This document shows positions 7,153 to 18,524 of a stretch of DNA of 64,000 nucleotides, one piece after another (the stretch's first letter is position 1; each line of letters opens with the position of its first letter). Both the position numbers and the translations under genes were made by a program. The stretch lies in NCBI RefSeq assembly GCF_007164725.1, contig NZ_AP019697.1, positions 726,001 to 790,000 of the forward strand, written 5' to 3'. The stretch comes from Dialister hominis (GTDB taxonomy: Bacteria; Bacillota; Negativicutes; Veillonellales; Dialisteraceae). The notes beneath the pieces are model-generated. The model was not told the origin of the DNA. It did no database searches and was given only the letters and a program-made list of their open reading frames with translations.

Positions 7153-7368
7153 TATATAAAAGCTGTGAAGGGAAGAAGTCGTGGATTTCTTTACAGAGAG
7201 CCATTGGTGCTGGAAAATGGCAGGAAAGAATCGATAAGTCACCCCGGAGCTGACTCTAAGTCCGCCGCGCACGTTACGCGCTAATGAGAGATCATTTCTT
7301 AATGATTATTTAGGTGGTACCGCGGAAGCACTCTTTCGTCCTATAGATGGATGGAAGAGTTTTTTTAT
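7153..7368 (+). ncRNA. T-box leader specific for tRNA-Val
   Basis: This is a classical T-box regulatory RNA ahead of valS. Stem I contains AGAGAG (7194-7199), the distal GGTG loop and a specifier region in which GTC at 7238-7240, followed by A, reads as a valine codon. The T-box bulge AGGTGGTACCGCGG is at 7312-7325; its TGGT would pair with the ACCA end of uncharged tRNA-Val. A terminator hairpin ACTCTTTC ... GGAAGAGT plus T7 is at 7330-7367. Uncharged tRNA-Val should stabilise the antiterminator and let valS be transcribed. Confidence 0.95.
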
Positions 7369-7388
7369 TTTAACAGGAGTTGAAAAAC

Positions 7389-10046
7389 ATGGCCGATTTA
7401 AAAGATCAAAAGCTGGACAAGTATGATCCAAGCGAAATTGAACAGGGTTGGTATCAGTATTGGGAAGATCATGGCGTTTTTCATGATGAACCGGATCCGG
7501 AGAAAGAACCGTACAGCATCGTTCTTCCGCCGCCGAACGTTACCGGCCAGCTTCACATGGGACATGCCCTTGATAACACACTGCAGGATATCCTTATCCG
7601 TTACAAGAGAATGCAGGGATATAACGTCCTCTGGCTGCCGGGCAAGGATCATGCCGGCATAGCAACTCAGGTTAAGGTAGAAAAGCAGATTGCTGAAGAA
7701 GGCCTCAGCAAGTATGATCTCGGCCGTGAAAAATTCCTGGAACGCGTTTGGCAGTGGAAAGAAAAGTTTGGAAACCGTATCGGCCTTCAGATCAGAAGGC
7801 TGGGTTCTTCCTGCGACTGGCAGAGAGAACGTTTCACGATGGATGATGTCTGTGCACGTGCGGTAAGGGAAGTTTTCTTATCCTTATATGAAAAGGGCCT
7901 GATTTATCAGGGATTCAGAATTACAAACTGGTGCCCGAGATGCCAGACTGCCCTTTCTGATATCGAAGTAGAACATGAGGATGAAGTCGGACATCTTTGG
8001 TATTTCAATTACCCGATCGTCGGTGAAGACGGATATGTCCAGATTGCAACGACACGTCCTGAAACAATCCCGGGGGATACAGCCGTTGCTGTCAATCCAA
8101 ATGATGAAAGATATGCCCATCTTGTAGGCAAGAAGGTAAAACTTCCGACAACAGACCGTGAAATTCCGATCATTGCTGATGATTATGTAGATATGGCATA
8201 CGGCACAGGCTGCGTCAAGATTACTCCGGCGCATGACCCGAACGACTTTGAGGTGGGAAGCCGCCACAATCTTGAGACCATCGTCATCATGAACAAGGAC
8301 GGCACGATGAACGAAAAGGCCGGCAAGTACAACGGCATGGACCGTTATGAAGCCAGAAAAGCCATCGTTCAGGATCTGAAGGATGCCGGTCTTCTGGTAA
8401 AGATTGAAGAAACAAAGCATGCTGTCGGACACTGCTCCCGCTGCAAGACGATCGTAGAACCGATGACAACCAAGCAGTGGTTCGTCAAGATGAAACCGCT
8501 TGCCGGCCCTGCCATGGAAGCCGTTACATCCGGCAAAACAAAGTTTGTTCCGGAACGCTTCTCCAAGACATACATTCAGTGGCTTGAAAACATCCATGAC
8601 TGGTGCATTTCCAGACAGCTCTGGTGGGGTCACAGAATTCCGGTATGGTACTGTGATGACTGCGGCGAAGTAAGCGCATCCCGCACGGATCTGACAAAGT
8701 GCCCGAAATGCGGAAGCGAACATATTCATCAGGATCCGGATGTCCTTGATACCTGGTTCTCCTCTGCACTCTGGCCATTCTCAACAATGGGCTGGCCGGA
8801 ACAGACACCGGTTCTCAAGCAGTGGTATCCGACATCCACGATGGTCACCGGTTATGACATCATTTTCTTCTGGGTTGCCAGAATGATGTTCATGTCTATG
8901 GAATTCATGCATGAGATTCCGTTCAAGTACGTATTCATTCACGGTCTGGTCAGGGATTCCCAGGGCAGAAAGATGTCCAAATCCCTTGGCAACGGCATCG
9001 ATCCGCTTGAAGTCATTGAGAAGTACGGCGCTGATGCACTGCGCTTTACCCTCGTTACCGGAAACACACCGGGCAATGATATGCGCTTCTACTATGAGAG
9101 AGTAGAAGGAAATAGAAACTTTGCCAACAAGCTCTGGAACGCAACAAAGTTCACACTGATGAACCTGGATGACTATGACAAGGATTTCGTCCCGTCCAAA
9201 GACCAGCTGACACTGGCAGACAAATGGATTCTTGACCGCCTTGCTTATACAGAAGATTATGTAAGCAATAACCTTGACAAATTCGAACTGGGTGAAGCTG
9301 CTGACAGCATTTACAATTTCGCATGGAACTATTTCTGCGACTGGTACATTGAAACTGCAAAAGCCCGTCTCTATGGCGAACACAATGATGACAGAAAAGT
9401 CACGCAGTATGTCCTTGTTTATACATTGACACGCATGCTTGCCCTGCTGCATCCGTTCATGCCGTTCATTACAGAACACCTCTGGCAGCATCTGCCGCAT
9501 GAAGGAGAAACACTGGCAAGAGCTCCATGGCCGAAGGCTGATGAAAACTTAAAATTCCCGGTTGAATCGGAACAGTTTGACCGCATTATGGATGCCATCA
9601 AAGCAATCCGCAATATGCGTGCCGAAGCAAATGTAGCGCCAAACAAGCAGTGCCATATCCAGAATGTTGTCCTTCGTGATGACCTGAAGAAGTGCCTTGA
9701 AGAGAATAAGGGATACTTCGAAAAACTGGCTCATGTTGAAACCATGGATATCCTGCCGGCAGATGCAGACAAGCCTGAAAATGCGCTGACTGCAGTCGTT
9801 ACAGGCATGGAAATCTATCTGGAACTGAAGGGCCTGATTGATACTGCCAAGGAAAAGGAAAGAATCGAGAAGAGCAAAGCATCTCTTGAAAAGGAAATTG
9901 CCAGAACATCCGGCAAGCTCAATAACAAGGGATTCCTGGCCAAAGCTCCGGAAGATGTTGTAAAGAAGGAACAGGACAAACTGGCTGAATTCGAAGAAAA
10001 GATGAAATCTTTGAATGAACGCCTTGCCTTCCTTGAAAACCTTTAA
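7389..10046 (+). CDS. valS: Valyl-tRNA synthetase
   Basis: This class I synthetase of 885 residues charges tRNA-Val and edits mischarged threonine. HIGH appears as HMGH at residues 56-59, and KMSKS is at 528-532 ([13 protein letters not shown]). The editing (CP1) domain lies between them ([18 protein letters not shown]), and a C-terminal coiled-coil tRNA-binding arm rich in K and E spans about 815-885. I chose ATG at 7389 because AGGAG at 7375-7379 is 9 bases upstream; the in-frame TTG at 7380 touches that site. Expression is under the T-box at 7153-7368. Confidence 0.97.
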
Positions 10047-16512: not shown

Positions 16513-16542
16513 TTGACAGCTTTGGCGTATTGCATCTATAAT
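16513..16542 (+). promoter_or_regulatory. Consensus promoter upstream of the structured RNA and cysS leader
   Basis: TTGACA (16513-16518), an 18-bp spacer and TATAAT (16537-16542). Both hexamers match the SigA consensus exactly. Transcription would begin near 16548, inside the base of the long terminal stem of the RNA described next. Confidence 0.85.
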
Positions 16543-16545
16543 GAT

Positions 16546-16761
16546 AAATAAGCATCACAGGTCTGTGGCTGAAAATCGATGGCAGTCGCAGCCAAAACGA
16601 TCCACGTAACGCAGAAAAAATTTCTGCTGAGCATGGTGCGGTTTAGAAGTAAGTCCTGCCGGTAAACCGAGAGGGTTAGTAGTGAGAGGGAACACCGGGT
16701 AGCGAAAGCTCCAGCAGGCGAGTGTGGGGTCAAAAGCCAGGTCAGCTGAGGATGCTTATTT
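16546..16761 (+). ncRNA. Structured RNA of unknown class (about 215 nt)
   Basis: The region has no reading frame of note but strong RNA-like pairing. The ends form an 11-bp perfect stem (AAATAAGCATC 16546-16556 with GATGCTTATTT 16751-16761). Inside are GGCTG/CAGCC (16567-16571/16589-16593), GCAGAAA/TTTCTGC with loop AAA (16611-16627), CCTG/CAGG (about 16655/16715), CCGGT/ACCGG (16659-16663/16694-16698) and a GNRA-capped AGC-GAAA-GCT (16701-16710). It starts at a consensus promoter and ends only about 12 nt before the cysS T-box, with no terminator between. I could not match it to RNase P, tmRNA, SRP, 6S or a riboswitch I know. A raiA-type or other orphan RNA is possible but unverified. Confidence 0.6.
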
Positions 16762-16773
16762 AAAAAAGTCATA

Positions 16774-16986
16774 TGGGCGATGAACAAAAGAAGTACCTCA
16801 GGTTTGTCATACAGAGAGGACAGGAATCGGTGAAACTGTCTTGATTAAACGGAGCGAAATGCATTTGTGAGCTGAAAAGGGGAAACGTAGTATCCTTTTC
16901 CGTATGTTTGCGATAAAAACATTTTGAGCGGCTTATGCCGACAGAGTGGATAACGGGCCACCGTCTCTGTGAGGCGGTGGTTTTTT
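16774..16986 (+). ncRNA. T-box leader specific for tRNA-Cys
   Basis: Stem I has AGAGAG (about 16813-16818), the distal GGTGAAAC and the specifier TGC at 16860-16862 in GCGAAATGCA, a cysteine codon. The T-box bulge is a variant, AGAGTGGATAACGGGC (about 16943-16958). Its TGGA can pair with UCCA, which suits tRNA-Cys because that tRNA normally has U as discriminator. The terminator CCACCGTCTC ... GAGGCGGTGG plus T6 is at 16958-16986. Uncharged tRNA-Cys should turn on cysS. The leader appears to be transcribed from 16513, through the upstream structured RNA. Confidence 0.9.
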
Positions 16987-17078: not shown

Positions 17079-18524
17079 ATGGAAGAAATCAAAGTTTATA
17101 ACACACTGACAAAGGAGAAAGAAGTTTTCAAGCCGATCACTCCTGGCGAAGTCAAGATTTATGTCTGCGGAGTAACGCCATACAATCATCCGCATATCGG
17201 AAATGCGCGTCCGGCAGTTACATGGGATATCATCCGCCGTTATCTTGAATACATCGGCTACAAAGTAAAATTCGTACAGAATTTCACGGATGTCGATGAT
17301 AAGATCATCAATAAAGCGAATGCAGAAGGCACCGACTGGAAGACAATTTCCGACCGTTACATTGATGCATACTTCAAGGTCATGGATGCGCTGCATGTAC
17401 GCCGTACAGACGTTTATCCAAGAGTTTCCGATCATATGGATGATATCATTCATATGGTGGAAGAACTGATCAAAAGCGGACATGCCTATGTTTTAGGCGG
17501 CGATGTTTATTATGACATTTCCACATTCAAGGACTATGGCAAATTGTCCGGAAGAAAAGTGGAAGATATGCTCGCCGGCGCCCGCATTGAAGTCAACGAT
17601 GAAAAGAGAAACCCGGGCGACTTTGCCCTTTGGAAGGCAGCAAAGCCGGGTGAACCGTTCTGGGAAAGCCCGTGGGGCAAGGGAAGACCAGGCTGGCATA
17701 TTGAATGCTCTGCCATGTCTACCCACTACCTGGGAAATACCATTGATTTCCATGGCGGCGGATCCGATCTTATTTTCCCGCACCATGAAAATGAAATTGC
17801 CCAGTCCGAAGGATGCACAGGCTGCCATTTCGTAAATTACTGGCTGCACAATGGATTTATTACCATTAATTCTGAAAAGATGAGCAAGTCTCTCAACAAC
17901 TTCTTCCTTGTGAAGGATGTCCTTGAAAAGTATTCCGGAGATGCTCTCCGTTTCTTCCTCCTGTCTACTCATTACAGAAGCCCGCTTGACTTCTCCGATG
18001 ACCGTCTGGAAGAAGCAGAAAAGAATATGGACAAGCTGAAAGATGTCATTGCCCGCATCAAGGAAATGTCCTCCATCGAAGGCAGCGAGGAAACAGAAGC
18101 TTCCAGGAAACTTGCTGAAGCAGCAGACCATGCCATGAAGGTATTCCATGAAGCCATGGATGATGACTTCAATACAGGCCTCACAACCGGTGCCATGTTT
18201 GAACTGGCAAAGGCAATCAATGTATATTACAACGAAGTACATGCAGGCACTGCATTCAACAAGGAAGCTGCCGATAAAGCAGGACAGACATTCAAGACAA
18301 TTCTCGACGTCCTTGGCATTCTGGAAAAGGAATGGAAGAAAGAAGAAGCCTATGACGACAAAGACTATAATGATCTCATGAATGTTCTTCTTGAAATCAG
18401 ACAGTCGGCAAGAAAAGCCAAACAGTATCAGATTGCTGATGAAATCCGCGACAAGCTTGGCGAAATCGGTATTGTGATTGAAGATACTCCGACGGGAGCA
18501 AGGTGGAAAAAACGTGGAGTTTAA
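17079..18524 (+). CDS. cysS: Cysteinyl-tRNA synthetase
   Basis: This class I synthetase of 481 residues charges tRNA-Cys. Zinc and substrate ligands are visible: Cys30 in IYVCGVTPY, WHIECSAMS in the middle, and HHENEIAQSEGC. HIGH is PHIG at residues 38-41 and KMSKS is at about 266-270. ATTGGAGGAATTTTT precedes the ATG. It heads the conserved Firmicute order cysS-mrnC-rlmB-yacP and is controlled by the T-box directly upstream. Confidence 0.97.
   Translation: MEEIKVYNTLTKEKEVFKPITPGEVKIYVCGVTPYNHPHIGNARPAVTWDIIRRYLEYIGYKVKFVQNFTDVDDKIINKANAEGTDWKTISDRYIDAYFKVMDALHVRRTDVYPRVSDHMDDIIHMVEELIKSGHAYVLGGDVYYDISTFKDYGKLSGRKVEDMLAGARIEVNDEKRNPGDFALWKAAKPGEPFWESPWGKGRPGWHIECSAMSTHYLGNTIDFHGGGSDLIFPHHENEIAQSEGCTGCHFVNYWLHNGFITINSEKMSKSLNNFFLVKDVLEKYSGDALRFFLLSTHYRSPLDFSDDRLEEAEKNMDKLKDVIARIKEMSSIEGSEETEASRKLAEAADHAMKVFHEAMDDDFNTGLTTGAMFELAKAINVYYNEVHAGTAFNKEAADKAGQTFKTILDVLGILEKEWKKEEAYDDKDYNDLMNVLLEIRQSARKAKQYQIADEIRDKLGEIGIVIEDTPTGARWKKRGV

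Follow-up and report, generated by a model that had tools for sequence, protein, structure and literature searches.

A raiA (ModT) RNA directly ahead of the tRNA-Cys T-box and cysS in the Dialister family

In Dialister hominis, the T-box leader of cysS is directly preceded by another structured RNA, which raises the question of what this RNA is and whether it acts on cysS or has a function of its own. The locus lies within a stretch of 64,000 nucleotides (contig NZ_AP019697.1, positions 726,001 to 790,000 of the forward strand), called here the window, and all coordinates given without a locus name refer to it. The original prediction, made from the DNA letters, had described an orphan RNA of about 215 nt, working either as a sensor in series with the T-box or as an independent, abundant RNA processed from the leader.

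Identity of the RNA and its occurrence in Negativicutes

The RNA is an ordinary raiA (ModT) RNA, a member of a known and very widespread bacterial RNA family. This identity is based on its match to the Rfam family RF03072, its presence in relatives, its covariation and the support for the pk-1 helix. The following elements define it:

16552..16755, + strand: full-length raiA (ModT) RNA, from the RF03072 match and covariation
16584..16590, + strand: 5' side of the helix taken as pseudoknot pk-1, from Rfam pairing and C-G to U-A changes
16637..16643, + strand: 3' side of the same helix, on the same evidence

The covariance model of RF03072 is matched over its whole length (positions 1-209 of 209) with 183.6 bits against a gathering cut-off of 101.3 (E 8.6e-47). 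The description of the RNA as an orphan that fits no class therefore falls, a confident match to a known family being the outcome that the original prediction had itself named as telling against it, and raiA, one of the candidates that it had listed for an Infernal search of Rfam, is what this search returned at full length. As the RNA is already in Rfam, no new class is claimed. That it could still represent an undescribed class unrelated to raiA is hardly credible at all, given a full-length match 82 bits above the gathering score and a family structure that covaries.

Covariation was analysed in 34 raiA sequences from the Negativicutes class, using a consensus structure obtained with RNAalifold to which the pk-1 helix was added. 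Standard pairs are formed by 98.3% of the cells of this alignment, a figure biased in favour of the structure, since the same 34 sequences had served in part to derive it, while slid controls reach at most 44.6%. Both sides have changed in 23 of the 56 pairs, and the observed values are not equalled in any of 500 shuffles. Projection of the raw Rfam pairs on a MAFFT alignment was dropped, because one hairpin was shifted by one base. C-G to U-A changes among relatives support the long-range helix 16584-16590/16637-16643, which is taken to correspond to pk-1 in the cryo-EM structure (PMC11751092). Cryo-EM structures of raiA RNA have been published in PMC11751092 and PMC12286853, and its genetics in PMC11706538.

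Folding of the single sequence 16546-16761 gives -70.7 kcal/mol (z -3.1), and none of 200 shuffles folds as well, so that the predicted structured RNA ahead of the cysS T-box holds against chance. Its proposed GNRA tetraloop does not: the element AGC-GAAA-GCU near 16702 is an artefact of folding one sequence, because relatives read AGCGAACCTTCC there, a sequence unable to close a tetraloop, and because these bases have other partners in the consensus structure.

Conservation was assessed by an Rfam family search, which finds one raiA copy each in 59 of 60 relatives, with all 52 near-complete genomes among the 59; together with the strong covariation, this bears out the test of conservation and covariation that had been suggested for the RNA. 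Across the class, raiA is present in 149 of 200 Negativicutes genomes (146 of them above the cut-off), always with one copy per genome. Unlike most other families of the class, family f14 has raiA in none of its listed genomes and is a candidate for a lineage-wide loss. According to the synteny figures quoted in PMC11706538, the commonest neighbours of raiA RNA are comFC upstream (74%) and the raiA gene downstream (66%), but neither of them adjoins the RNA in the window. The hibernation-factor gene (PF02482, raiA protein) is located at G000:C1:915833-916099 of the window's genome, about 173 kb from raiA RNA, and the usual neighbourhood of raiA RNA and raiA gene is therefore broken in this genome.

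Promoter, junction and T-box

The surroundings of the RNA, from its promoter to cysS, are composed of these elements:

16513..16542, + strand: sigma-A type promoter TTGACA-N18-TATAAT, 12 of 12 consensus matches
16546..16761, + strand: stretch of DNA covered by the extended closing stem P1, from sequence and single-sequence fold
16762..16770, + strand: raiA-T-box linker, from sequence; possible cleavage site
16771..16971, + strand: T-box leader for tRNA-Cys, RF00230, 92.2 bits, E 8.7e-21
16860..16862, + strand: specifier codon UGC (Cys), from the T-box alignment; UGC in all family members compared
16947..16950, + strand: UGGA bulge of the T-box core, from sequence and T-box alignment; core kept in the family
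16958..16986, + strand: T-box terminator (hairpin 16958-16980, U run 16981-16986), from sequence; both parts kept in the family
17079..18524, + strand: cysS, cysteine--tRNA ligase, TIGR00435, 571 bits against 340

The consensus promoter of the original prediction is present, with TTGACA at 16513-16518, TATAAT at 16537-16542 and a spacer of 18 nt, and the raiA RNA is thus predicted from sequence to have a sigma-A promoter of its own. A consensus scan places a promoter with 10-12 of 12 matches at the same position in the Dialister-family relatives, and in the window it is the only strong promoter candidate for both raiA and the cysS T-box. Transcription normally starts 6-7 nt past the -10 box, which would probably set the start at about 16548-16550, inside the 5' strand of P1. 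The outer stem of 11 bp (AAATAAGCATC/GATGCTTATTT), in which 16546-16556 pairs with 16751-16761, is thus correct as DNA, but its outermost pairs may fall outside the transcript, and only about 7-9 of the 11 pairs would probably be transcribed.

Between raiA and the T-box there are 9-15 nt, depending on the chosen stem end. Promoter and terminator scans of the + strand of this interval recognise neither a terminator nor a second promoter, in agreement with the tandem of structured RNAs first described in the cysS leader, with the qualification that consensus scans can miss weak promoters, as relatives L061 and L002 have 9-of-12 sites near the junction. Terminator-scan matches in L002, L013 and L061 were discounted, as they reuse the 3' domain of raiA itself. 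As a control, the T-boxes of the window's genome were compared: 23 of the 29 other loci have, within 100 nt upstream, a promoter-like site with 10 or more of 12 matches, and the raiA-linked T-box is the only one of the 30 that lacks any promoter candidate in that distance. This leaves the raiA promoter as the best candidate for driving cysS.

The T-box scores just under its gathering score of 93 bits, and it is therefore missing from the default Rfam scan; at the same place in the Dialister-family genomes scanned, Cys T-boxes score 81-93 bits. Covariance match, specifier, core bulge and terminator are all found at this leader, and the UGGA bulge fits the UCCA end of tRNA-Cys. Its terminator is the first clear intrinsic one downstream of the raiA promoter. 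With the tRNA-Cys T-boxes of RF00230 it shares the UGC specifier, the UGGA core, the terminator/antiterminator and the aminoacyl-tRNA synthetase gene downstream. T-boxes usually have their own promoter, whereas this one has none directly upstream and is preceded by a complete non-coding RNA. In the same way, the raiA RNA resembles other members of RF03072, ModT of C. difficile among them, in its full-length match, conserved core and pairing, sigma-A promoter and single copy per genome, but it differs from them in that the copy in the window has no terminator of its own and is directly followed by the T-box and cysS.

Mean identity within the Dialister family is 84.7% for raiA, 61.8% for the T-box and 27.6% for the linker, and the value for raiA is comparable with that of free-standing relatives (81.8%). 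This pattern would look like independent function of both parts, without a precise coupling through the linker.

In D. succinatiphilus, the gap between the T-box terminator and cysS is filled by short palindromic repeats, ACTAGTGTACTAG and ACTAGCTC (L053:1970-2012); a similar stretch occurs in L054 and is absent from the window. A second T-box of the window, at 7156-7346 (+) with 99.9 bits, is located ahead of a valyl-tRNA synthetase gene (7380-10046, named from sequence). Inside this gene there is an antisense tRNA-Glu call at 9049-9132 (-), which is probably spurious.

Gene layouts in relatives

The order raiA, Cys T-box, cysS is found in all 11 Dialister-family genomes that hold raiA, and the only genome of the family without raiA, G004, has a completeness of 75%. 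The family of Negativicoccus massiliensis also has a T-box after raiA, with a separate promoter of 10-11 of 12 matches between them and with cysE before cysS. None of the 45 genomes of the other two families of the order has the tandem. In Veillonella-type (f4) and Megasphaera-type (f3) relatives, whose family names were inferred in this analysis, raiA mostly ends in a hairpin and U run of its own, and cysS was found away from raiA in all eight genomes checked. Six of these distant cysS genes have an upstream T-box with a promoter-like site in front of it, as judged by eye, while the leader in L165 is shorter and of uncertain type, and L168 lacks one. Elsewhere in the order, the terminator scan was blank for L056 and L069, yet a hairpin and a U run can be seen by eye.

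In other Negativicutes, raiA precedes genes for a small treble-clef zinc protein or apparent transporter genes. The first of these arrangements, with raiA about 35 nt before the gene (PF13451) and no clear terminator between them in L092, L101, L075 and other loci of the class, is another recurrent close pairing of raiA with a gene. Upstream neighbours vary as well: Allisonella histaminiformans (L117:701-1354) and G006 (L057:2501-3135) carry an RNase P RNA (RF00010) that is co-oriented with raiA and precedes it by about 85-100 nt, so that rnpB, raiA, T-box and cysS are consecutive in both, and glnB and amt genes take this place in the window.

A pattern scan of the whole collection gave no true tandems outside the order; it was limited to exact core motifs and to T-box cores spaced by 192-252 nt, tandems with longer leaders could escape it, and the true tandem of G001, missed by the pattern, was confirmed by sequence and cmscan. 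Apparent convergent tandems in Baileyella, in Youngiibacter and in one bin each of Family XIII, Nocardioidaceae, Firmicutes and Negativicutes were rejected, cmscan giving raiA without a T-box in them. A search pairing 'raiA motif' with 'cysS' found nothing in the literature covered, although the full synteny survey of the original raiA knockout paper may contain the layout. The fusion of raiA, T-box and cysS would be a modest but clean novelty, a Dialister-family-restricted variant of gene layout that contains an already known RNA; it can be regarded as a natural rearrangement of a broadly conserved one.

Transcription and function of the tandem

It is proposed, and considered likely, that the single Dialister raiA gene forms the 5' part of the cysS transcript, that its trans role is kept and that the T-box terminator serves raiA. 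RNA polymerase would start at the sigma-A promoter, making raiA at every initiation, and this compact RNA would very probably keep its own trans-acting role. The polymerase would run from raiA straight into the tRNA-Cys T-box, where charged tRNA-Cys should cause a stop at about 16986, yielding a raiA-T-box RNA of about 440 nt, and uncharged tRNA-Cys should let transcription continue into cysS. Since raiA has no private terminator and that of the T-box comes first, the latter would replace it, just as the raiA promoter would stand in for the one expected at the T-box. Mature raiA, of about 205-215 nt, may be freed by cleavage in the A/U-rich linker or, alternatively, raiA may act while still attached. 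The distribution of the layouts, read without a rooted tree, suggests that it was the cysS T-box that lost its promoter in the Dialister family. In the family as a whole, raiA appears to have acquired a conditional T-box terminator and cysS to have become dependent on the raiA promoter. The layout predicts that raiA tolerates a structured 3' extension of 230 nt or is processed from it, and makes it simple to learn whether raiA depends on a free 3' end.

A 3' extension of raiA has a close precedent, by analogy, in the long ModT isoform of C. difficile, ModT(L), which arises by read-through to a downstream terminator (PMC11706538). Both are raiA transcripts extended to a downstream intrinsic terminator, but the extension is about 45 nt in C. 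difficile versus about 230 nt in Dialister, where the terminator is that of a T-box and is expected to respond to tRNA-Cys charging.

Alternatively, raiA could act in cis as a sensor placed in series with the T-box, its ligand altering T-box folding or transcription pausing, so that cysS answers two signals. The direct adjacency of both RNAs in one leader across the Dialister family would fit this, Rfam types RF03072 as a cis-regulatory riboswitch, and a ligand could be behind the growth-phase changes that ModT shows when probed in vivo (PMC11706538). Against this, raiA/ModT is highly abundant and acts in trans in C. difficile and C. acetobutylicum, and complementation from another locus restores its function in both, which excludes a cis riboswitch in these species and makes a cis role unlikely here (PMC11706538). 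In addition, the genes downstream of raiA vary by family, often behind a terminator that belongs to raiA itself, conservation does not extend to the linker, and MFE folds contain no consistent pairing between raiA and the T-box; neither a consistent gene target nor an expression platform linked to an aptamer was found, as a cis riboswitch would have. A sensor in series is hence disfavoured and highly unlikely, as this RNA ends at a terminator of its own among unrelated genes in sister families, and the other option of the original prediction, an independent abundant RNA that would be processed from the leader, is favoured. In that sense, a covariance-model match ahead of a gene need not mean a cis-regulator of that gene.

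The two RNAs could also be separate units, raiA ending at a weak terminator formed by P1 and CUUAUUU, and the T-box being transcribed from a promoter unlike the sigma-A consensus. The 3' strand of P1 is indeed U-rich in the window and in several relatives, such as L061 and L002, and the short isoform of C. difficile ends near P1 (PMC11706538). In the window, however, this strand is followed by A residues and not by a U run, and L003, L029 and L058 of the Dialister family have no U run at the 3' strand of P1. Moreover, most other T-boxes of this genome have recognisable promoters, and a conserved one could not be hidden in a linker this short and variable. Separate units are thus unlikely, and the U-rich strand might cause partial termination right after raiA in some species.

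Within the proposed co-transcription, there is a slim chance that the fusion is functional in itself, the raiA-T-box hybrid of about 440 nt accumulating with its 3' end, and perhaps its stability or activity, set by tRNA-Cys charging. If so, the part that raiA/ModT plays in growth transitions would be tied to the status of amino acids or tRNA. In C. difficile, ModT deletion has been reported to raise tRNA levels (PMC11706538).
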